A stretch of DNA of 64,000 bases. Source: Methanocella paludicola SANAE (GTDB lineage: Archaea; Halobacteriota; Methanocellia; Methanocellales; Methanocellaceae). The notes beneath the pieces were generated by a model. That model worked only from the letters and a program-made list of their open reading frames with translations. It did not search any database and had not been told where the DNA came from. The stretch lies in the NCBI RefSeq assembly GCF_000011005.1, contig NC_013665.1, positions 1,178,001 to 1,242,000 on the forward strand, written 5' to 3'. This document shows, one piece after another, positions 770 to 50,575 of the stretch. The first letter of the stretch is position 1. Every line of letters starts with the position of its first letter. A program made the translations under genes and the position numbers.

Positions 770-1568
770 GTAGCTTCCTCAATTGAGATATATGCTACCA
801 TATAACATGGTTTGGGCATATAAAGGTGTCGATTGTCGTTACATGGGGCTTAAAATTATTTATTCTGGATTGTGTTGAGTAAATGGTTCAAAATATCTCA
901 TATTCTCGTTTTTCGGCATACTTCCCGCAAATTAGTTCGGTCGGTATCACTCACATTTCTTCGATCTTGTGGGCGCTGGATTGTCCGGTCGGTATCACGA
1001 ACTTCACTAAAGGAATTAAAACACGAACTGTTTTTAAGATTTTACTCACAAAAGCCCTGAGCCCCGAACTCACTGTCAATGCCCTAATGGACTAATCCAC
1101 AGGGCAGTGCTCGAAATCACTAATGCTCTAACCCGAAACGAAGGCTCTAAAACACGAACGCACGTTTGAAACGCTAAACGATAGAGCACGAACACTCAAA
1201 GGCACGGCTAAAACTCCAACGACACCAAGCTTAAGCGCTTAAACCTTATGGTTCCTACCGGGCTTTTAGAGTGTTTGTGCATGACTGTTTCGGGTTTCAA
1301 ACGTGTCTTCGAGCTTTAGAGCCTTCCTTTCGGGTTAGAGCCTTCGAGAATTCGAGCACTGCCCCGAGTATTGGAGAGTTCGAGCGTTGACGGTGTTTTA
1401 GTACCTTAGAGCTTTCGTGAGTAAAATCTTAAAGAAAAATTCGTGGCTTATTTCCTTTGGTGAGGTTCGAGATACCGACCGAACTAATCAGCACACACGG
1501 GGCATAAGAAATGTGAGTGATATCGACAGAACAGTTCAGCTCTATATGAAATAACGCATAAAATAAAA
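770..1568. other. Long intergenic region holding palindromic element copy 1
   Basis: About 800 bases without a credible gene. The first 170 bases are the AT-rich promoter region of the upstream ligase. The rest is taken up by the long imperfect palindrome described separately. Short open frames here have no coding character and lie inside the repeat. Confidence 0.7.
935..1532. repeat. Long imperfect palindrome, copy 1 (nested arms)
   Basis: The inner palindrome runs 983-1484. The reverse complement of its right arm aligns along its whole ~250-base length with the left arm, at roughly three quarters identity by eye; for example GGTCGGTATC..CGAAC pairs with GTTCG.GATACCGACC, and AAGATTTTACTCAC occurs on both arms. 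The centre is the AAGCGCTT-type sequence near 1232. An outer pair of arms, 935-961 and 1506-1532, matches at 25 of 27 bases and carries the same GTTCGGTCGGTATCAC terminal box, so one element appears nested in another. The arms are built of degenerate CTCTAA/CTCGAA/CACTAA/CACGAA units. No gene or transposase lies inside. A second copy is at 7276-7780. Confidence 0.85.
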
Positions 1569-3419
1569 CTATGATGTCGGCTTCTCATCGGAAATATCGT
1601 AATGGCCCTGCTCTGGCGGCACATCGCTCGAACCGTCGATCTCCTGGGGCGGAAGCTCCTCGATGGGATATTCCTCGACTTCCCGGTGCTTTTCGGGCAG
1701 GTCGATGATATTGAAGATACCGTGGCCCTCGGCCAGGTCGAAGTAGGCCGCATAGTCGAGCACGGTCTGCCTCAGCTCTTTGGTCGCCGAGATCTCCTGA
1801 AGCTGCACGACAGCAGTATTCAGGTTATTGATGTCGGCGTCCTCGCGGTAGACGAGTATGAGCTCTTTAAGGGGAGCATAAACGATCACGCGGTCGCCCA
1901 AATTAACATTCACCGCGTCCAGCAGCCCTTTCACGAAGGCCGGGTGCACCATGATGTCGCAGGCGTTGTTGCTCAGGGCGCCAACGATGACGTCCTTGCC
2001 GAACTTACCGGCATGCGCCTCTACGTTGATGCGCAGGCTGTCCAGCTCCTCCTCGAAGGCGTCGTCGAGGTCCTTACGCTCGACAAGCCATTCCGCCAGG
2101 TCGGTCTTCCTGACCGGGTTCACGTGCTGGCCGCAGGCCGTCGAGTACAGGATCACGATGCCTTCCCTCTCCTCGTAGACGAGGTCCAGGACACCGGGCG
2201 TCGACTTTATCCAGGAGGCGGGCTCGATGGACTTGAGAATGAACGCAGGGCGGCCGCACTTGCAGACTGGATGGAACTTCTCGTTCTTGCTGAGCACGTC
2301 CTTTAATTCCGCGGTCAGGTCGCGCGTCCCTCCCTTAGGCATGGGCGAGTAGGGGTCGATCTTCTGTGATTCGCCGGTGCGTGGGTTGATGATCTCCAGC
2401 ATGTCCCCGTCGAGAGCGAACTCATAAGTCGGCAGGTCACGGCGTAATAACTTCAGCAACGACTCGGCGGAGTACACCTTATTAACGGCGATATCCACCT
2501 TCTCGTCGATGGCCTCCTGCAGGGTCTTACCGCGGAAGGCGGCCGAGCGGATGATATCCTTGAACGAAAAGTACGCGCTGAACGGCTTCTTCTCTATACG
2601 GCACGTATCCTCTTTGATCGTATAGCCGATGTCCTCGCGCTTGAGCGTGCCCTCCACCAGTTTCTTGACGACCTGGGAGTCGATGACGACCGAGGCGTCG
2701 ATGCGGTTCTTCTTAATGTCGTCCACGAACTCAGGCATCCACTCTTTGAACGAGTCCTTAGGCGCCTCTCTCTCGCCGTCGATCTCGCTGAGCTTGATGA
2801 CCACGGCGCTGCTGCCAGGCCAGCTCGGCCCGACGATCTCCCTGGTCGAGACGTCGGCGTGGGGAATATCTCCGGGAACGGCGACGATAACATAGCCTCT
2901 CTCGATGTTGTAGGCCTGGATGCTCCGGGTCTCCTTGACCGTGCTGAGCATCCGCTTCCAGGTCTCGCGGACGCTGAACACGTGGCCGAAGGCGTCGTAC
3001 ATGTACCGGAAGTCCATGATGTTGCTAAGTTCTTCCCGCACTCCCTTCAGGTCCATCCGGTAAAAGGTCACGAACTCGCTGTCCGCCGTGACCTCGGCCT
3101 CCAGGTCCAGCCCGACGTCGGGGAAAAAGTGACTGTACTGGGCGATGATGATATTCTTATAAGTAAGCTTGTTCCCGCACACGCAGTTATGGGTCTCGAA
3201 ACGGTATCCTGAGACGGTGTGCAGGAAGCTGTCCAGGCTCAACGTATGGAAGAACAGCGGCTTCATGACCGTGTTGTTATGCGAGCACCGGGGGCAGAAG
3301 AACGTGATGATGGCCCCGTCGTTGTGTTTTTTATCGCTGATGGCGTAAAGCCTGGCCTCGACCAGCTTTTCGACATATTTAGGGTTAAGGCTACCCTCAC
3401 CCTGTTCCGGTACCGTCAT
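1569..3419 (-). CDS. Zinc-ribbon protein of unknown function, 616 aa
   Basis: I do not recognise this family. Near residue 42 there is CPRC, followed about 35 residues later by CVCG, which together could bind one zinc; a second group, CKCGRP with a later ACGQH, lies near residues 390-440. There is no signal peptide or membrane segment, so it is likely cytosolic. The C-terminal ~35 residues are acidic and proline-rich (EEYPIEELPPQEIDGSSD). The ATG at 3417-3419 follows a TATA-like TTATAAAC near 3430. It is transcribed alone and is flanked by the palindrome at its 3' side. The ABC exporter downstream of its promoter is on the same strand but ends at a terminator hairpin, so the two units look separate. 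Confidence 0.8.
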   Translation of the reverse strand: MTVPEQGEGSLNPKYVEKLVEARLYAISDKKHNDGAIITFFCPRCSHNNTVMKPLFFHTLSLDSFLHTVSGYRFETHNCVCGNKLTYKNIIIAQYSHFFPDVGLDLEAEVTADSEFVTFYRMDLKGVREELSNIMDFRYMYDAFGHVFSVRETWKRMLSTVKETRSIQAYNIERGYVIVAVPGDIPHADVSTREIVGPSWPGSSAVVIKLSEIDGEREAPKDSFKEWMPEFVDDIKKNRIDASVVIDSQVVKKLVEGTLKREDIGYTIKEDTCRIEKKPFSAYFSFKDIIRSAAFRGKTLQEAIDEKVDIAVNKVYSAESLLKLLRRDLPTYEFALDGDMLEIINPRTGESQKIDPYSPMPKGGTRDLTAELKDVLSKNEKFHPVCKCGRPAFILKSIEPASWIKSTPGVLDLVYEEREGIVILYSTACGQHVNPVRKTDLAEWLVERKDLDDAFEEELDSLRINVEAHAGKFGKDVIVGALSNNACDIMVHPAFVKGLLDAVNVNLGDRVIVYAPLKELILVYREDADINNLNTAVVQLQEISATKELRQTVLDYAAYFDLAEGHGIFNIIDLPEKHREVEEYPIEELPPQEIDGSSDVPPEQGHYDISDEKPTS

Positions 3420-6194: not shown

Positions 6195-7247
6195 GTGAGT
6201 GAAATGATATCCGTAGAAGGCGAAGAACTGAAAAAGACCTTCGATAGCGTTCCCGCCGCGCTCGTCGTGGTCGACGGCGAGCTTAAAGTTCGTTTTTTTA
6301 ACAGTGCATGGGCTGAGCTCTGTGAGCAGTGCCTGGGTAAAAAGGCCGCCCCGCACATGAGCATCACGACGCTTTTTAAGGATGAGACCCCGGCGCGGAT
6401 GCTGGCCGACGCCCTGCATGGAAGCACCGTGCGGGAGAACGGCTTCCGCTTCGAGTCCGCATGCGACCGCTTCTATGACCTCACGGCCGCCCCGTCCGAC
6501 AGCGGCGCCGTGCTTATGGCCGTTGACTCCACGGAGCGCTGTAACGCCATAAACCGGCTGGAGTCGGCAAAGTCCGAGGCCGAGTTCTATGTTGACCTCA
6601 TGAGCCACGATATCCGGAATTTCAACCAGGTCACCATGGGCTACATCGAGCTGCTCCAATTAGCCGATAGCCTGAGCCCCCGGGATATCGAGTACCTTGA
6701 AAAAGCCCAGAAAGGCGTCACGGGCAGCAACAAGCTCATCGATAACATCAAGAAAATACGCCTTATCCGGCAGTTCGCCGGTAAGAACACCGTAAAGACG
6801 GACCTGAACGCCATACTTAAACAGGATGCGGACGACGTCCGTAAGGCCTCGCCTTCGGCGAAGATCCGCATGGAGTTCGACCTGAAGGAAAAGCGTGCCG
6901 TCATGGCCGACGAATACGTGCACGAGATATTCCGCCATATCCTGGAGAATGCGGCTAAATATGACCCGCATCCCGAGAAGCTCATTGATGTTACGGTATT
7001 GCCGGAGAAGATCGACGGTAAGGACTACTGGTCCGTGCGTATCTCCGACCATGGCTCGGGTATTCCGGAGGACAAAAAGAAGTCCGTCTTTGAGCGGATG
7101 ACGGGGACGACAAAGGGCGCCGGCGTGGGGCTGTCCATCGTCCGGGTGATCGTGGATAAATACGGCGGCCGGATCCGCGCCGAGGACCGCGTTAAAGGCG
7201 ACCCGTCGAAGGGCACGATATTTGTGGTGGATCTGCCGCAGGCGTGA
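6195..7247 (+). CDS. PAS-containing sensor histidine kinase
   Basis: A 350-residue soluble kinase with no membrane segment. Residues ~12-115 form a PAS-type sensor (FDSVPAALVVVDGELKVRFFN). The dimerisation helix carries the phospho-acceptor His138 in LMSHDIRNFNQ, a form of H-box common in methanogens. The catalytic domain has the N-box HILENAAKYDP, G1 box DHGSGIPEDKK and G2 box GTTKGAGVGLSIVRV. The GTG start at 6195 follows GGTGAT. There is no response regulator next to it, so it is an orphan kinase and its partner lies elsewhere. The cytosolic PAS suggests sensing of redox state or an internal ligand. Confidence 0.9.
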   Translation: MSEMISVEGEELKKTFDSVPAALVVVDGELKVRFFNSAWAELCEQCLGKKAAPHMSITTLFKDETPARMLADALHGSTVRENGFRFESACDRFYDLTAAPSDSGAVLMAVDSTERCNAINRLESAKSEAEFYVDLMSHDIRNFNQVTMGYIELLQLADSLSPRDIEYLEKAQKGVTGSNKLIDNIKKIRLIRQFAGKNTVKTDLNAILKQDADDVRKASPSAKIRMEFDLKEKRAVMADEYVHEIFRHILENAAKYDPHPEKLIDVTVLPEKIDGKDYWSVRISDHGSGIPEDKKKSVFERMTGTTKGAGVGLSIVRVIVDKYGGRIRAEDRVKGDPSKGTIFVVDLPQA

Positions 7248-7855
7248 TGTTATAAATTCAACATCTAAACGATGGTTTGTTCGGTCGGTATCACGAACCT
7301 CTCCAAAGGAATTAAACCACGAATTTTTCTTTTTAGATTTTTCTCACGAAGTCTCTAAGCCTCGAACTCACCGTCAACGCACGAACTCTCTAATACACAG
7401 GGCAGTGCTCTAAGTCTCTAACGCGCTAACCCGAAACGAAGGCTCTAAGTCTCTAAATCACGTTTGAAGCGCTAAACGACATAGCACTGACACTCTAAAA
7501 GCCCGGTCGTTCCCCAGTACTTTGGGGTGTTAGTGGCGTTGGCGATTTAGCCGAGCCTTAGAGAGTTTGTGCAGGCTCGTTTAGCGTTTCGAACGTGCAT
7601 TCGAGTTTTCGAGCCTTCTTTTCGGGTTTGAGGCTCAGGGCGTTCGTGCAATGCCCAGAGTATTAGAGAGTTCGGGCATTGACGGTGTTCTAGAGTCTCA
7701 GGGATTTAGTGAGTAAAAATTATAAAAGAAAATTAGTGGTTTATTTCCTTTGGTGATGTTCGAGATACCGACCAAACAAATCAACGCCCTATGGAAGTAC
7801 GAAAAAATTTCAAGCGAGTGTCGTAAAATAGAGATTCGCACAAATCGCTTCTCAA
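7248..7855. other. Intergenic region holding palindromic element copy 2
   Basis: About 600 bases with no credible gene between two convergent transcription units. Most of it is the palindrome at 7276-7780. The remaining 75 bases on the right are AT-rich, with nothing recognisable. Confidence 0.7.
7276..7780. repeat. Long imperfect palindrome, copy 2
   Basis: The ends TTTGTTCGGTCGGTATC and GATACCGACCAAACAAA are inverted matches, and the arms match through to a central CCCCAGTACTTTGGGG hairpin near 7518. Sequence and order of blocks agree with copy 1: CCAAAGGAATTAAACCACGAA, CACAGGGCAGTGCTCTAA, CTAACCCGAAACGAAGGCTC and CACGTTTGAA. CTCTAA is favoured here where copy 1 often has CACGAA. This copy lacks the nested outer arms of copy 1. 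Confidence 0.85.
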
Positions 7856-8581
7856 TTAAATATTGCTTAACAGTTTACTAACTGTCGGCTCGACGTAATA
7901 CTTCTTGAACCTGCCGTCCTGCTCGAACGTGACCAGGTTATCGTTCAGGAACCGCTCGATGTGCCAGTGAACGCTGCTCTTGTCCAGCCCGAACCTCTCC
8001 GACAGCCGCTGGTTCGTCACGCCGGGCTCCTCCAAAATGGCCCAAAGAATATTCCGGCTCGTATCGTTCTTGATATACGCCAGCACCGTCTTTTCCTGCT
8101 CGGTATTCGCCTTTGAAGTATTGAATATGCGGGTGTACTTGCCCATCCGCTTCAGGATGATCTTGCCCTGCGACTCGAGCATCTGCACGTGGTACTTGAC
8201 CGTCCCGTTCTTCATGTTCTGCCTGGTCGATATTTCCGAAGGCGTGCAGCCGGGGTTGTTAGCGACATAGTTGAATATGTTAAGCCGGTTGCGGTTATCC
8301 AGCACGTTCTGGATCTTGCCGATAACGAAGGGGGCCGCATTCATCAGGCCTATCGCGATGAGTATGCCGTCCAGGGCGCCCGCCACCTGTATCCACAGGG
8401 GCAGGTCCCAGAATGATACGGCCGCTGCGTCGGTCGCCTTCACGCCCGCGGGTATGCCGCTGCCCGGCGTCACGACGTATCCGCCGGTGCCGACAGTCGC
8501 CTGCAAAAACAAAGGCGAGACCAATAAAAGGGCGGATAAAAGGATGACCGCCACGATAAGGATCTTCATGTTCAGCCGCAT
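7856..8581 (-). CDS. Membrane-tethered winged-helix transcriptional regulator
   Basis: A 241-residue protein with an N-terminal hydrophobic segment (MKILIVAVILLSALLLVSPL), a short external loop of ~40 residues, a second membrane segment near residues 62-88, and then two winged-helix domains. The first is RLNIFNYVANNPGCTPSEIS..NGTVKYHVQMLE, the second SRNILWAILEEPGVTNQRLS..DKSSVHWHIERFL. The layout implies an extracytoplasmic sensor loop and DNA binding from the membrane. The start follows the stop of the exported-protein gene by two bases, so the two are translated together. An initiation at Met5 is equally possible. The family is common in Methanosarcina-type archaea but mostly uncharacterised. 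Confidence 0.85.
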   Translation of the reverse strand: MRLNMKILIVAVILLSALLLVSPLFLQATVGTGGYVVTPGSGIPAGVKATDAAAVSFWDLPLWIQVAGALDGILIAIGLMNAAPFVIGKIQNVLDNRNRLNIFNYVANNPGCTPSEISTRQNMKNGTVKYHVQMLESQGKIILKRMGKYTRIFNTSKANTEQEKTVLAYIKNDTSRNILWAILEEPGVTNQRLSERFGLDKSSVHWHIERFLNDNLVTFEQDGRFKKYYVEPTVSKLLSNI

Positions 8582-9605: not shown

Positions 9606-10340
9606 TTGATCAAGACAGAGAATTTAACAAAGGCCTATGACGGTGTCAAAGCCGTGGACTCCCTCGACCTTCACGTGGAAAAGGGGGACGTGTTCGGCTT
9701 CCTCGGCCCCAACGGATCGGGCAAGACCACCACCATGGGCATGATGATCGGCGAGATCGAGCCGACGTCGGGAAAATGCTTTATCAACGGCATAGACGTT
9801 CTCCGCCATCCGCTCGATGTCAAGCGGATCATCGGCTATATGCCCGACGGCCTGGGGTTCTACGAGAACCTCAACGCACGGCAGAACCTGAAATTTTTCT
9901 CCGAGTTCTACGACCTACCTTACGATAAGGCGGATAAGCGCATTACGGAACTGCTCAAATATGTGGGGCTCGAAGGCGTGGAAAAGAAAACGGAAGGATA
10001 TTCAAGAGGCATGAAACAGCGGCTCGGCCTCGCGCAGGCGCTGCTCAACGATCCCGAAGTCATATTCATGGACGAGCCGACCAACGGCCTGGACCCGCAG
10101 GGCGTCATGCAGGTGAGGAACATCATCAAGGACCTTTCCTCCCGGGGCAAGACGATCTTTTTCTCCAGCCATATCCTGGAGGAAGTGCGCCATGTATGCA
10201 AGACCGTGGGCATCATCTCTCAGGGTAAATTGATCGCAAAGGGCTCGCTGGACGATGTCATGCATAAGATGGATAAGGGCACGGCCCCGGAAAGGTCGCT
10301 GGAAGAAATATTCCTGCAGACAGTATACGGAGGCGCTTAA
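9606..10340 (+). CDS. ABC exporter ATP-binding protein
   Basis: A 244-residue ATPase of the ABC-2 exporter class (CcmA/NosF-like). Walker A GPNGSGKTT lies at about residues 34-42, the signature YSRGMKQRLGLAQALL near 140, and Walker B IFMDEPTNGLDP, followed by SSHILEEVRHVC. The TTG start at 9606 is preceded by CAGGAGGAAG. The permease begins one base after its stop. The three-gene unit with a NEW3-domain protein resembles operons thought to move or remodel cell-surface components; the cargo is not known. Confidence 0.92.
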   Translation: MIKTENLTKAYDGVKAVDSLDLHVEKGDVFGFLGPNGSGKTTTMGMMIGEIEPTSGKCFINGIDVLRHPLDVKRIIGYMPDGLGFYENLNARQNLKFFSEFYDLPYDKADKRITELLKYVGLEGVEKKTEGYSRGMKQRLGLAQALLNDPEVIFMDEPTNGLDPQGVMQVRNIIKDLSSRGKTIFFSSHILEEVRHVCKTVGIISQGKLIAKGSLDDVMHKMDKGTAPERSLEEIFLQTVYGGA

Positions 10341-12888: not shown

Positions 12889-12950
12889 AGGCTCTGGACA
12901 GATCGCTCGATAGTACCGCTATTTTATTCCTGGCCCGCGAGATAGAACGC

Positions 12951-12990
12951 TAATATACGCTAATATACGCTAATATACGCTACAATATAT
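12951..12990. repeat. 10-bp tandem repeat TAATATACGC in a promoter region
   Basis: Three perfect tandem copies of TAATATACGC (12951-12980) and a degenerate fourth lie 40-80 bases upstream of the next gene. A 10-base period places each copy on the same face of the helix, and each contains a TATA-like core, so this may be a cooperative protein-binding array or a slipped promoter. Confidence 0.6.
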
Positions 12991-13031: not shown

Positions 13032-13403
13032 ATGGACATGAAAAAAGTATTTATCTTCGTTCTTTCCGTGCTGGCGATCCTGGCGATCTCTCTTCCGGCT
13101 GCTGCCAGCTTCGCCCCTGACGCGCGACCACTCAGCGCCGACTCGAGCATCAAGAGCGTGACTCCGTTCGACGGGTCCGTAGTAAGGGCGCAGCAGGTAA
13201 GAGATCCAACGGGAGCCGCAGGCATCTCCAGGCAGGAGGTCACGGGGGAGGAAACACCCGTAACGATGAACTATAATCCTTACTACCCGGTTACCACATA
13301 TCCCGCCTGGATACCCAACTGGTGGGGGAGCTGGGGGTGGGGTGGCCCTGGCTGGGGCGGCTGGAGCTGGCCCTCGTGGAACACCTGGGGAGGCTATTGG
13401 TAA
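13032..13403 (+). CDS. Small exported Trp/Gly-rich protein with shared DPTGAAGISRQEVTG motif
   Basis: A 123-residue protein of no known family. It has a signal peptide (KKVFIFVLSVLAILAISLPAAA), then a short linker, the motif VRDPTGAAGISRQEVTG near residues 57-73, and a C-terminal tail very rich in Trp, Gly and Pro (NWWGSWGWGGPGWGGW). The same 17-residue motif occurs in the 382-residue exported protein 2 kb away, where the preceding residues are also similar. A Trp/Gly-rich tail of this kind suggests surface stacking, aggregation or carbohydrate contact; none of this is shown. ATG at 13032 is preceded by GGGGAGACTGGT. Confidence 0.75.
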   Translation: MDMKKVFIFVLSVLAILAISLPAAASFAPDARPLSADSSIKSVTPFDGSVVRAQQVRDPTGAAGISRQEVTGEETPVTMNYNPYYPVTTYPAWIPNWWGSWGWGGPGWGGWSWPSWNTWGGYW

Positions 13404-13497
13404 ACGAGAGATAAAGCTGCCGGTAAGACCAATAGGACGATAAAAAAATTAATGAGGCGCGTTTTCAATCTGATACCGCCGCCTCTTCGCGAAACGC

Positions 13498-14550
13498 CTA
13501 GAGGTCCCAGAACACAGGTGCTATATGAGCACCGGCCACCGTCTTTTTACGTGCCAGATCCAGCATCGTACTCCTGTTGGTCGGATTGAAACACCCCGTG
13601 CCATTTTTATAGGGCGTGATCCATTCCGGATACGATGTCTTGCCTTCGTATGCATTGTGCATCGTGGAGCCTACGAACGCATTCCGGTACATGCGCTGCA
13701 GGTTCGTCGAGTTCGAGATCTGCGTCTTATTCCACTTTGGATCGGCAACGGGTGGCTTCCGCGTTCCCCAGCCATCGCGCATCTTCGTAGCGGCGCTCGA
13801 TGTGCTCGTGGCATTGGTCGTACCCGTTACATTACTGGCGCTCGTCGTATTCGTGACATTCGTCCGGGGCCTGGCGTCCGACGTAATGTCGACCGTGTCG
13901 CGATTGATAATGTTCACATCGGTACTGAGCGACTTCACATATGGGCCTATGGCCGGGGATAGGCTGTCCATATCGAGCGCCAGGCTACCGTCGGCAGCCT
14001 TGGCGACCGGAGTCATGTACGGCCAGACGAACTCGGAGCCAAGCATCTTCGGATTCTTGAACGGGTGCCCTGATCCGAGGTAAGTCCCGATCGGCTCTGT
14101 TCCCAGGTTGCTCGCCGCGGTGTCGGCCATGAAAGCCCAGTTCGCCGTGAAGAACCCTGTGTCCGTAGTCTCCAGCTCTTGCGCCGCGTCCTGGTGAACG
14201 TCCGGGAAGGCCAGGTTGACCGGCCCGAATGGCAAAACATTCGCCGTCCCACTTGTGCTAAGGCCGACATCATCACCGATTGCGGTCACGCCCGTCGTCG
14301 GACCGAGCCCCAGGTCGTCGGCAGTTATCGGGAAATCGATCTGCAGGTTTTCTTTATCGCGCGCGAAAGCTGTCTGCTGGTGGAATATTGCGGCCATCGG
14401 TTTCTGTACGCTGATGTCCTCGCCTACGATCACGTCGCCTGCCTGGAGCGCCCATTGAGCCTCCATACGCGCTGACACGTCCAGTGCCATAGCCCCCACC
14501 AGTATACAAACTATGGTCACGATGACAGGCACAACTCTAAGTATGCTCAT
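13498..14550 (-). CDS. Exported protein, paralog A of a divergent pair
   Basis: A 350-residue exported protein I cannot assign to a family. The ATG at 14548-14550 is chosen because GAGGAGGGTG lies directly upstream, and the divergent paralog has the same leader. The signal segment is followed by the mature N-terminus ALQAGDVIVGEDI. A core block, DLGLGPTTG then NVLPFGPVNLAFPDVHQDA and TGFFTANW, is shared with the divergent gene, as are SEFVWPYMTPVAKAADGSLAL and the C-terminal MYRNAFVGSTMHNAYEG..YPEWI and GAHIAP.FWD. Residues ~225-265 form a Thr/Asn/Ser linker with many N-glycosylation sequons. It lacks the DPTGAAGISRQEVTG motif found in its partner. Confidence 0.8.
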   Translation of the reverse strand: MSILRVVPVIVTIVCILVGAMALDVSARMEAQWALQAGDVIVGEDISVQKPMAAIFHQQTAFARDKENLQIDFPITADDLGLGPTTGVTAIGDDVGLSTSGTANVLPFGPVNLAFPDVHQDAAQELETTDTGFFTANWAFMADTAASNLGTEPIGTYLGSGHPFKNPKMLGSEFVWPYMTPVAKAADGSLALDMDSLSPAIGPYVKSLSTDVNIINRDTVDITSDARPRTNVTNTTSASNVTGTTNATSTSSAATKMRDGWGTRKPPVADPKWNKTQISNSTNLQRMYRNAFVGSTMHNAYEGKTSYPEWITPYKNGTGCFNPTNRSTMLDLARKKTVAGAHIAPVFWDL

Positions 14551-14957
14551 AAACACCCTCCTCAACGGTATTCTACTAACCCTCAACTAATAGATAGAAA
14601 AGCCGTGCGTTTAAAGGTTCACGAAAATTTAACCGAAATAATGGCGTTCTATGGATTATAGGGGACAGCCCGCCGTAATATTTGAGAATGGCCCGGATCA
14701 TTCCAGGTCCAATTCACTGATTCCCTATCTACAGAGCCCTCTGGATAGTTTCGGTATTGTGACCGGTGGTTCGCTACAAACGCAATGAATAGGCCTGAGA
14801 AGTTTAACTAATCAATACTAATCAATCGTATTATTATTATTAAATTTAATTACAGTTAATAATATACTGATTATAAGTTTGTTTTAGAGGTATATTGAGA
14901 ATCTATCCGGTGAGCCTGTTGAGGGTCAGGAGCCGGTCGGTTCATGAGGAGGGTAAT
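14551..14957. promoter_or_regulatory. AT-rich divergent promoter region
   Basis: About 400 bases between two divergent paralogous genes. The central part (14800-14890) is very AT-rich, with repeated ACTAATCAATA and TTATTATTATTAAATTTAATTA, and contains TATA-like sequences for the rightward gene. Both start codons are preceded by the identical GAGGAGGGT. No gene is visible. Confidence 0.6.
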
Positions 14958-16106
14958 ATGAGGGTAGAGTATACGCTGAGAAAACCATTAACTATATTGT
15001 TAGTTTCAATCCTCGTGGTCATATCGACCATGCCAACGGTATCATGGGCGAGGACGGAAGCGAGGTATGAACTGATCGCGGGCGACGTGTTCTTCGGCAA
15101 CGATCTGGGCCAGTGGGTTACTAAACAGAGCTTATTCCATCAGAACACGCTCCAGACGGAGGACCTGGAACATCTGAACATTGATTTTCCGATAAAAGCT
15201 GATGATTTAGGGCTTGGCCCGACCATTGGCACTGCGGAAGCTGATGGCGTTGCTCTTACTGGTTCGGCCAACGTTTTGCCGTTCGGTCCCGTGAACCTGG
15301 CCTTCCCGGACGTTCACCAGGACGCCTTCCAGTCGATAGCTGCGACGCAGACCGGATTCTTCACGGCTAACACGGTGGGCATACCTCCGGCGAATCTGGG
15401 CTCCTACGAGCTGATATCCGGGCCGGGAGCGTTCTTAAGCCCGGTGTCGGCACCTTCATCCATCGCAGGGCCGTACATGCCCTACGCTGAGATGACGAAC
15501 ATCATTCCGGGGTACGAACGACAAAAGGCCATCATTAAGAAGAAATCGAATTTAGCGGACCAGGAGTTCGTCTGGCCCTACTCGATCCCGACCGCCAAGG
15601 CTGCCAGTGGCAGCCTGGCCCTCGATACGAGTAGCCTGTCGTCCCCGGGGTATGTTCCGGACGTGCCGTCGCTCGAAGGCGTCAAGAGCGTTAATCCCAA
15701 TGCGGGGTCAGTATTGAAATCGCAGGTGCGGGATCCAACGGGCGCCGCAGGTATCTCCCGACAGGAGGTCACGGGAGTGGAAGGAGTGGTGCCAGGGAGC
15801 TATATGGGCGGTGGTGCGCAGAATTATCTGGCGTATCCGTTCTTCCCGTTCGCCGCAAAGGCTGAGCAAATATCCCAGATGTCGCTCCTTGACAGGATGT
15901 GGCGGAACGCCCACCTGGGCACAATGGGCCGGGCTTACGAGGGCCTGACTGCCTATCCGACCTGGATCCTGCCCCTGGATTATACGAAATCCGCCATCAA
16001 CATGGCGGACTGGGCGGCAGTGAACCGTGAGGCGCTTAAATACACACTGCCCGGAACTCATATAATGCCCAGGCTGTGGGACATCAATATAGTTCCAGGC
16101 GCATAA
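14958..16106 (+). CDS. Exported protein, paralog B of a divergent pair, with DPTGAAGISRQEVTG motif
   Basis: A 382-residue exported protein, paralogous to the divergent gene on its left. ATG at 14958 follows GAGGAGGGTA. The signal segment is LTILLVSILVVISTMPTVSWA. The shared blocks are LIAGDVFFGND, DLGLGPTIG, NVLPFGPVNLAFPDVHQDAF, TGFFTAN, QEFVWPYSIPTAKAASGSLAL, MWRNAHLGTMGRAYEGLTAYPTWI and GTHIMPRLWD. Between the second and third group it carries VRDPTGAAGISRQEVTG (near residues 255-271), also found in the small exported protein upstream. The family is unknown to me; conservation of whole aromatic and Asp-rich blocks suggests a folded surface domain rather than a linker. Confidence 0.82.
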   Translation: MRVEYTLRKPLTILLVSILVVISTMPTVSWARTEARYELIAGDVFFGNDLGQWVTKQSLFHQNTLQTEDLEHLNIDFPIKADDLGLGPTIGTAEADGVALTGSANVLPFGPVNLAFPDVHQDAFQSIAATQTGFFTANTVGIPPANLGSYELISGPGAFLSPVSAPSSIAGPYMPYAEMTNIIPGYERQKAIIKKKSNLADQEFVWPYSIPTAKAASGSLALDTSSLSSPGYVPDVPSLEGVKSVNPNAGSVLKSQVRDPTGAAGISRQEVTGVEGVVPGSYMGGGAQNYLAYPFFPFAAKAEQISQMSLLDRMWRNAHLGTMGRAYEGLTAYPTWILPLDYTKSAINMADWAAVNREALKYTLPGTHIMPRLWDINIVPGA

Positions 16107-47807: not shown

Positions 47808-47839
47808 TTTGACCAGAATAAGCCAATGGGGGCTTAACT

Positions 47840-48721
47840 ATGGAAACGGTAATACAGACAACGGACCTGACAAAATTTTACGGCAAAAGTCGCGGGATAA
47901 AGGACGTTAGCATCACAGTAAACAAAGGCGACATCTTCGGCTTTTTAGGCCCGAACGGCGCGGGCAAATCGACCACCATAAGGACTCTTCTGGACTTCAT
48001 CCGGCCTTCGGCCGGCTCCGCCACGATCTTCGGCATGGACTGCCGCAAGGACTCCGTAGCCATCCGAAAGCGCATCGGCTACATCCCGGGCGACTTCGGC
48101 CTGTACGGCCACATGACCGGCTGGAAGTTCCTCGAATATTTCGGGCGCATACGAGGTGGATATGATACCTCGGCCGCAAAAGAATACTCGAAGAAGCTCG
48201 ACATCCGGCTCGACCGCAGGATGAAGGAGTACTCGAGGGGCATGCGGCAGAAGGTAGCTATCATCCAGGCGTTCATGAATAACCCTGACCTTATCATAAT
48301 GGACGAGCCCACCAACGGCCTCGACCCGCTGGTGCAGCAGACCTTCATGGATATGCTGCACGAGGACGCAGGCCGGACGATATTCATGTCGTCGCACGTG
48401 CTCTCGGAGGTGGAAAAATCCTGCAACCGGGTGGCCATCATCAAGGAAGGCCGCATCGTGACCGAGGAGCAGGTCGAGGCGCTGCGGCAAAAATCCGGCA
48501 AAGTGCTTGAAGTCAAGTTCGCGCAGCCCCTGACGAAGGAGATCTTCTACCTGCCCGGCATCAGCAACTTAACGCAGGTCAATGGCGCTTACCGCATGAC
48601 GGTCACCGGCAGTCTCGAGGAGCTTCTCCAGGAGATATCCCGCCACAGGCTGGCGGATATCAGCATACACCAGATGACGCTCGAAGACATTTTCATGCAC
48701 TACTACGAGGGGGCGAAGTAA
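47840..48721 (+). CDS. ABC exporter ATP-binding protein (tandem copy 1)
   Basis: A 293-residue ATPase with Walker A GPNGAGKST, signature YSRGMRQKVAIIQAF, Walker B LIIMDEPTNGLDP and SSHVLSEVEKSC. It is closely related to the ATPase at 49688 (same METVIxTxxLTKFYGK start and TLLDFIRPS block), from which it differs by a two-residue shortening before RTIFMSSHV. The permease follows one base after its stop. Part of a tandemly duplicated exporter region. Confidence 0.93.
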   Translation: METVIQTTDLTKFYGKSRGIKDVSITVNKGDIFGFLGPNGAGKSTTIRTLLDFIRPSAGSATIFGMDCRKDSVAIRKRIGYIPGDFGLYGHMTGWKFLEYFGRIRGGYDTSAAKEYSKKLDIRLDRRMKEYSRGMRQKVAIIQAFMNNPDLIIMDEPTNGLDPLVQQTFMDMLHEDAGRTIFMSSHVLSEVEKSCNRVAIIKEGRIVTEEQVEALRQKSGKVLEVKFAQPLTKEIFYLPGISNLTQVNGAYRMTVTGSLEELLQEISRHRLADISIHQMTLEDIFMHYYEGAK

Positions 48722-48722
48722 G

Positions 48723-49523
48723 ACGGCGCTGGAAGTATTCAAGCAGGCTATAAAGGATAAGTGGGTTGGCGCCACAGTAGCCGCTGTACTGCTTTTCCTG
48801 TACGTGTTCTGGATCGCCACGTTCTACCCGGCGCTCAAGCCGAACATGTCCATGTACGACGACATGCTGAGCAATCCCACGTTCCAGGCGCTACTCGGGG
48901 AACAGGTAGCCACCATGGGCACATTTGTGGGATTCATGACCATGGAAGTGTTCAGCTACATGGGGCTCGTCCTGGGCGCGTACATCATCTTTATGGCGGC
49001 TTCGTTCGCGGCCGGGGAGATCGAGCAGAAGAGCAGCGAGCTGTTGCTGTCGCTTCCGGTAAGGCGTGAGTCGCTCATCATATCGAGGTTCACGGCCATG
49101 CTGCCGTTCATCGCCTTAATCGTGTTGGCGGAGCTGGCCGCTATCTACGCCGGAGGCCGGTATATCGGAGAGGACTCCTCGATACGGTGGTTCGCCTATG
49201 CCATGCTGTTCATGGGCTTTTTCCTGGTCGCCGTGGGCGCGATGGCGCTGCTGATATCGTCCCTGATGAGCGATGGCAGGAAGGCCGCCCTGGTATCTCT
49301 GGGCATACTGCTCGGCATGTTCCTGGTCGAGAACATCGGCTCGATGGTCACGAGCATCGACTGGGCGAGGAGCCTGTCCCTGTTCCATTATGTAAGGCTG
49401 ACTTCGATCGTCATGAACCACGAGGTCGTCTGGCGGAATGCCGGGATATTGCTGGTCATCACCGTGGTCTGTCTGGTACTCGCCGTCATCGTCTTCAGGC
49501 AGCGCGACATCAACGTCACGTAA
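48723..49523 (+). CDS. ABC-2 permease with apparent ACG start (tandem copy 1)
   Basis: A 266-residue permease. The only standard start in frame (GTG 48804) would delete the N-terminal helix. The reading frame upstream, TALEVFKQAIKDKWVGATVAAVL, aligns with the N-termini of its two paralogs (MSLAVLFQTLKDKARG and MSLKVLRQTLLDKWKS), and the position of their ATG is ACG here, 9 bases after GAGGGGG. Length then equals the paralogs (264 and 266). A CTG two codons later is also possible. It has six membrane helices and a GEIEQKSSELLLSLPVRRE motif. Confidence 0.85.
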   Translation, partial: TALEVFKQAIKDKWVGATVAAVLLFLYVFWIATFYPALKPNMSMYDDMLSNPTFQALLGEQVATMGTFVGFMTMEVFSYMGLVLGAYIIFMAASFAAGEIEQKSSELLLSLPVRRESLIISRFTAMLPFIALIVLAELAAIYAGGRYIGEDSSIRWFAYAMLFMGFFLVAVGAMALLISSLMSDGRKAALVSLGILLGMFLVENIGSMVTSIDWARSLSLFHYVRLTSIVMNHEVVWRNAGILLVITVVCLVLAVIVFRQRDINVT

Positions 49524-49532
49524 AAATAGCAA

Positions 49533-49556
49533 AGCCCCGACAGGGGCTCTTTTTTT
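49533..49556 (+). terminator. Rho-independent-like terminator
   Basis: AGCCCC and GGGGCT around a GACA loop, then CTTTTTTT, ten bases after the permease stop. Confidence 0.8.
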
Positions 49557-49687
49557 AATTACAAGCGGTAATCTTTATATACCGGGAGTTTAGCTGGCAA
49601 GAAAATCCTTAAATAAGCAATAAGGAGACTTCCTAATGCCGAATAAAGTGGCACATGCCTTCGGCAAAAATCAGCTGAGGCTTAACA

Positions 49688-50575
49688 ATGGAAACTGTCA
49701 TCGAAACGAAAAATCTGACTAAGTTTTACGGAAAAAACCGGGGCATTAAAGACGTGAATATCACCGTACGAAAAGGCGATATCTTCGGCTTCCTCGGGCC
49801 CAACGGTGCGGGTAAATCGACCACGATCCGCACGCTGCTCGACTTCATCCGGCCGTCGAGTGGCAGAGCGACCATCTTAGGCATGGACTGCCAGAAGGAC
49901 TCGCTCGCGATCCGGAAACGGACCGGGTACGTCCCCGGTGACGCGAACCTCTATGGCCACATGACCGGCTGGAAGTATCTCGAGTATATCGGTGGCATCC
50001 GGGGCCAGTACGATGCGGCGTCGGCGAAAAAGTACGCGGAGCGCTTTGAGATCCGGCTCGACCGCAGGATGCGGGAGTATTCCAGCGGCATGCGGCAGAA
50101 GGTCGTCCTCATCCAGGCCCTCATGAATGATCCCGACCTGGTCATCATGGACGAGCCGACGAAGGGCCTGGACCCGCTTGTACAGCAGATCTTTATGGAC
50201 GTGGTCCGGGAAGAGGCCGCCAATGGTAAGACCATCTTCATGTCGTCCCACGTGCTCTCCGAAGTTGAAAAAGTCTGCAATCGCGTCGCGATCATCAAGG
50301 AGGGCATGATTGTCGCCGAGGAGGACATGGAGAGCCTCAAGCACAAAGCTGGCAAGGTCGTCGAGGTGAAGTTCCGGGGAGCGAAGCCTGAGCCCTTCAC
50401 GATCAGCGGCATCGGCAACGTGGCGCAGCTCAACGGGTACTACCGGATGACGGCGGCCGGCGATATCCGGAACATACTCCGGGATATCGCCTCCTACGAC
50501 GTCGAGGACGTCAACATCCACTCCATGACGCTGGACGACATCTTCATGCAGTATTACACGCCCGGGGTGAAGTGA
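49688..50575 (+). CDS. ABC exporter ATP-binding protein (tandem copy 2)
   Basis: A 295-residue ATPase, about three quarters identical by eye to the product of the gene at 47840. Walker A GPNGAGKST, signature YSSGMRQKVVLIQAL, Walker B LVIMDEPTKGLDP; SSHVLSEVEKVC follows. It is followed immediately by one permease and then a second, so the complex may use two different permeases. Own promoter region at 49560-49680 after the terminator. Confidence 0.93.
   Translation: METVIETKNLTKFYGKNRGIKDVNITVRKGDIFGFLGPNGAGKSTTIRTLLDFIRPSSGRATILGMDCQKDSLAIRKRTGYVPGDANLYGHMTGWKYLEYIGGIRGQYDAASAKKYAERFEIRLDRRMREYSSGMRQKVVLIQALMNDPDLVIMDEPTKGLDPLVQQIFMDVVREEAANGKTIFMSSHVLSEVEKVCNRVAIIKEGMIVAEEDMESLKHKAGKVVEVKFRGAKPEPFTISGIGNVAQLNGYYRMTAAGDIRNILRDIASYDVEDVNIHSMTLDDIFMQYYTPGVK

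Follow-up and report, generated by a model that had tools for sequence, protein, structure and literature searches.

A dispersed family of long palindromes built of CNCNAA units with four constrained letters in Methanocella paludicola

Results

The window studied here, a stretch of 64,000 nucleotides from Methanocella paludicola SANAE, holds two copies of a long palindrome that belong to a family we call F1 (Table 1). Copy 2 occupies the spacer between a gene for a PAS/HATPase histidine kinase and a gene for a winged-helix (HVO_0163-like) regulator. It contains an inverted repeat (7270-7498 and 7558-7786) that is 76% complementary, and RNA folding of the palindrome was far better than that of shuffled sequences on either strand (z = -18.6 and -15.6). 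(Note that one tRNA was the sole Rfam match in the window, and that the palindrome had none.) The arms are built of short units of the form CNCNAA, with about 33 units in a palindrome of about 500 bases and about 16 in the same direction in each arm; we counted 16.2 units per arm versus 1.8 in shuffled sequence, and 0.03 in the opposite direction. Many units are spaced 8 nt apart, which makes a common reading frame impossible, and we therefore ruled out the arms as coding sequence.

Other repeats in the window include inverted and direct repeats within 13193-15782 (13958-14034/15564-15640, 14186-14251/15260-15325 and 13193-13253/15722-15782) that are probably duplicated genes, two adjacent ABC-transporter ATPase stretches within 47831-50177 that are 75% identical and related to 9680-10098, and a perfect tandem repeat of ACGCTAATAT at 12947-12982 (3.6 copies). 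M. conradii has a 37-bp satellite (PMC6749651), but this is a tandem repeat and is distinct from F1.

Table 1 Coordinates of the palindromes, their parts and neighbours, and related elements (positions without a prefix are those of the window)
Feature	Position	Strand	Remark
Copy 2 of F1, core TTCGGTCGG to CCGACCAAA	7280..7776		497-nt imperfect palindrome, axis ~7528
Left arm, copy 2	7280..7500	+	CNCNAA units on + strand
Right arm, copy 2	7556..7776	-	CNCNAA units on - strand (TTNGNG on +)
Centre (tip), copy 2	7501..7555		Region where or near which five other F1 copies carry an IS256-type element
PAS/HATPase histidine kinase gene	6195..7247	+	Flanking; ends 33 nt before copy 2 core
Winged-helix (HVO_0163-like) regulator gene	7856..8581	-	Flanking; converges on copy 2
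Copy 1 of F1	984..1483		Divergent member; palindrome, aligned with copy 2
Extended copy 1 with nested outer terminal repeats TTCGGTCGGTATCAC...GTGATATCGACAGAA	936..1531		Inverted repeat
IS256-type element at palindrome centre	L035 7881-9164
IS256-type element at palindrome centre	L037 2042-3328
IS256-type element at palindrome centre	L067 ~1775-3035
IS256-type element at palindrome centre	L038 928-2210
IS256-type element at palindrome centre	L068 1596-2905
IS256-type element at palindrome centre	L036 2331-3650
F2 copy	G000:C1 2350059-2351677		Among ~27 places

The first-pass annotation had claimed that copies 1 and 2 keep one block order over their full length, and pairwise alignment bore this out. 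In particular, copy 1 (983-1484) was 75.8% identical to copy 2 in the +/+ orientation and 77.6% identical with copy 1 reversed, the opposite orientation aligning slightly better, whereas shuffled controls gave 41.8% identity (maximum 46.2%). Substitutions were not uniformly random along this common order; the proportion of substituted positions was 2-3% for the anchors (C1, C3, A5 and A6 of the unit), 41% for positions 2 and 4 of the unit, and 27-30% for the remainder. The nested outer terminal repeats are whole in copy 1 and partial in L003, L012, L021 and L023. We also considered a distinct 110-bp repeat, with flank types T1 and T2, as a target into which the palindrome had inserted, but dropped this on inspection, the T1 and T2 flanks being better read as parts of the nested outer terminal repeats. 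Copy 1 itself has two nested sets of terminal repeats, and recombination between the sets could explain the T1 and T2 flanks of other copies.

The two copies had also been taken as signs of a dispersed family, and a search of the genome (a single contig of 2,957,635 bp) revealed far more than two: 81 BLAST hits on both strands resolved into about 38 places which, with one IS-split copy at 1.838 Mb, make about 39 copies of F1. We oriented and aligned 34 full copies (68 arms), the mean pairwise identity of which was 0.854 (range 0.73-0.96), such that copies differ by 4-27%. (An apparent fixed left/right heterozygosity with "flipping" of arms was an orientation artefact, and was gone once 14 copies had been turned.) The family ends in TTYGGTCGGTA...TACCGACCRAA and is palindromic throughout, and thus has terminal inverted repeats. 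With a simple ORF caller, raw counts placed 18 copies in convergent, 15 in co-directional and 1 in divergent spacers, and none inside an ORF. A stretch of 849 kb next to cdc6/orc1 (coordinate 1.5 kb) is without F1 copies; such a gap arose in 4 of 20000 random placements in a max-gap test, which was single and post hoc.

Scans in this genome and in that of the second genus described below found no target-site duplication of the palindrome itself. Six F1 copies had direct matches of 7-8 of 8 positions at their ends, but almost the same octamers (CTGATTTG/CAAATCAG) are found in the majority of copies, and there was no excess over controls from other copies. We found no autonomous relative with matching ends, only IS256-type insertions between arms. 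A 19-mer of the F1 end matched two contigs of bacteria, roughly as many as chance would give, and no inverted repeat was present there.

Across the 68 arms, each with 17 CNCNAA unit positions, heterozygosity at positions 1 to 6 of the unit was 0.014, 0.27, 0.000, 0.39, 0.03 and 0.03; the mean outside units, within the arms, was 0.20. Because choosing units by their conservation could bias heterozygosity, we employed a hold-out test in which one copy served to set the units and heterozygosity was measured in the remaining copies. In F1 this gave 0.00-0.04 for the anchors and 0.26-0.37 for N2 and N4, and when units were placed at random 20000 times, the contrast seen with the consensus units was never equalled. 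Rare variants were depleted about 4-fold, with 0.16 per anchor site versus 0.60 outside. The anchors are under purifying constraint, and the variation at positions 2 and 4 is not a two-state switch; that the anchors are nearly unchanged, rare variants included, points to selection on the motif and not to conversion aimed at units. Whole-unit switching between CTCTAA and CACGAA, which the first-pass annotation had proposed, is contradicted by the combinations of positions 2 and 4, nearly all of which occur (TT 259, AG 185, TG 155, CG 121, GT 99 and AT 94 among them), and by the variation of non-unit positions. At position 4, T and G together make up 85% in F1 and the common variants are all transversions, a pattern that a recognition letter K fits better than plain mutation does; the T/G preference is absent in the second genus.

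Arms were 0.807 identical within a copy and 0.807 identical between copies (91 of 200 permutations were as high), and the compensatory pairing between arms that would mark a structured RNA family was thus not seen. Selection on pairing would give a better match within copies, so the equality of the two values indicates that pairing itself is not selected; that pairing is not kept within copies argues against a structured RNA. This favours a reading in which the units themselves are read over one in which the hairpin has a role. Left and right arms were most different at the centre and had alleles in common at the ends.

In 30 copies of F1, linkage (r2) was 0.36 for sites less than 5 bp apart, 0.15 at 5-10 bp and 0.07 at 10-20 bp, with a background of 0.04 beyond. 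The short-range excess was matched by none of 2000 permutations, all four combinations were present for about 90% of the pairs of sites separated by more than 10 bp, and the left and right arms taken separately gave a similar decay. For the closest pairs of copies except L033/L034, 75-92% of differences were alleles present in other copies. In L033/L034, which lie at 1.954 and 1.921 Mb, this held for 12 of 21 differences, and 18 of the 21 fell within about the last 90 aligned columns, a cluster that appears to be a conversion tract. Recurrent mutation at tolerant positions could contribute to the reshuffling; it does not account for the tract or for the position-specific two-allele pattern. 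The suggestion that a mechanism acts on the repeats therefore survives in part, in that alleles are shuffled between copies and linkage is gone by about 20 bp, but the process does not seem to be aimed at units. In F2, a second family described below, linkage (arms pooled) extends over longer distances, and the strength of reshuffling thus differs between families.

A search with one query found eight IS256-type transposase genes (Transposase_mut), six of them near a palindrome centre, five in F1 and one in F2. The tip-inserted elements fall into three lineages with 26-63% protein identity. Read by eye, the 8-bp duplications of the F1 insertions are CACTAACA, AAAATGCG, GAGCCCGG, CGATTGCA and GGGCTCTT, and that of the F2 insertion is CACGATGG. 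Their own ends, own target-site duplications and three lineages rule out these elements as the autonomous parent of the palindromes. A transposase between the arms that mobilises the repeat, as in a foldback element, was likewise not found, the IS lineages being diverged and using different near-centre sites.

In a second genus of this taxonomic family (G001) we found a diverged F1-like family of 40 or so copies, each about 545 bp long, and there the hold-out test (30 copies) showed the same anchors frozen (0.003-0.056 versus 0.20-0.37 at N positions); two further genomes of that taxonomic family gave no DNA-level match. F2, in the M. paludicola genome, comprises about 27 copies (L129-L157) of a palindrome of about 325 bp with CACNNAG units, for which hold-out heterozygosity by position was 0.05, 0.04, 0.01, 0.39, 0.32, 0.02 and 0.00. 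Its distribution is unlike that of F1, with a gap at 608-1317 kb. A third hairpin type in the same genome (L190, G000:C1 982300-983100, and also G000:C1 1444283) has CACAGAG/CACGGAG units and poly-T stretches.

Pattern scans of 392 genomes of the phylum detected 8-nt and 9-nt unit arrays in many lineages. Controls with reversed patterns were near zero in most, and were raised in others, including the genomes of family f6 (8-nt) and G002 (9-nt), for which the evidence is weaker. Sampled loci were hairpins of such units in L182 (G200), L185, L186 (G351) and L188 (G377), in addition to L190; no unit hairpin was present in L170, L178 or L179, and L169 and L187 were ambiguous. L182, L185, L186 and L188, from other Halobacteriota, have CGCGAAG or CACAAAG/CACAGAG units.

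Discussion

We favour a reading, to which we give about an even chance, in which F1 is a non-coding and probably non-autonomous MITE-like fold-back repeat, the arms of which are arrays of sites for a putative DNA-binding protein acting in trans. The inverted arms and terminal repeats of F1, together with its dispersal, suggest a non-autonomous mobile element, and four frozen letters beside two that drift suggest that a protein reads the CNCNAA sites. Each arm would then present about 16 recognition sites CNCNAA in the same direction, position 4 being mostly T or G, and a putative sequence-specific protein, probably bound to duplex DNA, would contact C1, C3, A5 and A6 and tolerate change at positions 2 and 4. 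F1 would spread by transposition, alleles would be reshuffled by gene conversion between copies, and protein binding would serve either this spread or the host, for example in organising the chromosome. Counting against this reading, recognition of the motif could take place in RNA just as well, the 849-kb gap is more than a neutral mobile element needs, and a target-site duplication, an autonomous relative and a candidate protein were not found.

It is in our judgement unlikely that F1 acts as RNA. In such a scheme the arms would be carried in read-through transcripts of the genes that flank a copy, and either the units would be recognised by a protein or nuclease, or the hairpin would terminate transcription or shield the 3' ends of mRNA. 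The very strong fold and the position of copies downstream of genes speak for it, but arms within a copy are no more complementary than arms across copies, pairing is thus not kept up beyond the common anchors, no Rfam family matches, and, since the units of the two arms lie on opposite strands, a single transcript would have the motif plus its complement. The anchor constraint across copies, which extends to rare variants, and the gap next to cdc6/orc1 would also suit a part in host chromosome architecture, with F1 copies as binding platforms outside the replication-origin region by a logic like that of matS or BIME. We regard this as quite unlikely: the F1 gap rests on one post-hoc test and the F2 gap lies elsewhere, the subfamily sequences are genus-specific, and IS insertion at the tips seems tolerated.

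A mechanism that exchanges whole hexamers between CTCTAA and CACGAA would place most variation at unit positions 2 and 4, as seen, and would accord with linkage confined to less than about 20 bp and with common variants at position 4 that are all transversions. We nevertheless think it improbable, given that nearly every combination of positions 2 and 4 is present, that positions outside units vary and have their alleles reshuffled as well, and that frozen anchors, not switches, are what stands out. There is hardly any prospect that F1 is a decayed satellite that evolves neutrally, derived from a folded-back array of octamers and under no selection. The 8-nt spacing of many units and a resemblance to octamer-based repeats elsewhere recall such an array, but the anchor test effectively refutes it, with anchors frozen amid diverging neighbours in two genera and two motif types.

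F1 is like several known systems in part. Drosophila FB elements have long inverted arms composed of short sub-repeats that in some cases flank a transposase gene, and in Ac/Ds and En/Spm about 200 bp of each end is full of short degenerate sites for one protein. F1 shares with FB the long inverted arms built of short sub-repeats, and with Ac/Ds and En/Spm the many short degenerate sites. Unlike in foldback elements, the transposase genes in F1 entered the palindrome as insertions in their own right, each with an 8-bp duplication, and no duplication flanking the palindrome was found; unlike in Ac/Ds and En/Spm, the F1 arms meet at the centre with no cargo, and we know of no F1 transposase. Tm1 of root-knot nematodes is a further foldback element, of the Mutator/Foldback kind (PMC3169594). 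REP/BIME and REPIN elements, which go with RAYT (Y1) transposases (PMC2817692, PMC3116915, PMC3733652), are also dispersed intergenic palindromes in many copies that serve as IS landing sites. They differ from F1 in that REP is 20-40 nt, whereas F1 is about 500 nt with about 33 hexamers; in length, copy 2 at 497 nt lies well outside the 20-40 bp palindromic unit, marked by a GTAG/CGTC tag, that defines the REP class. RAYT (Y1_Tnp, PF01797) had no match in the M. paludicola genome; five control genomes matched. The IS256-family element ISRm5 is known to target palindromic repeats (PMC1525189), and as with ISRm5 and REP-targeting IS, the IS256-type elements lie at or near the symmetry axis; here, in contrast, three IS lineages use two palindrome families with differing unit motifs. 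The CACNNAG and CGCGAAG hairpins of other Halobacteriota resemble F1 in their inverted arms, short units and fixed outer and variable inner letters, but the examples we sampled tend to be shorter and to have a smaller number of units in each arm, and CACNNAG spacing is 9-10, not 8.

Unit-built hairpin repeats are present in many lineages of the phylum, and in the literature that we searched we found no description of them, whether as Methanocella repeats, as CACAGAG/CACAAAG hairpins, or, for other Halobacteriota, as hairpins of the CACNNAG or CGCGAAG type. These observations raise the possibility, which we offer tentatively and with more doubt than confidence, of a widespread archaeal fold-back class (8-nt CNCNAA, 9-nt CACNNAG) in which fixed and free letters form a code that a putative DNA-binding protein reads. 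Each genome would have tens of such platforms, with about 33 sites apiece, that evolve as one recombining population, and the protein would either move the repeats or organise the chromosome. From the anchor code a bait can be designed together with a mutant version changed at C1, C3, A5 and A6 alone. F1 and F2 offer an archaeal case of palindrome tips to which IS256-type elements home, and the F1 copies are a natural set of genomic repeats that recombination has brought close to linkage equilibrium at about 20 bp.
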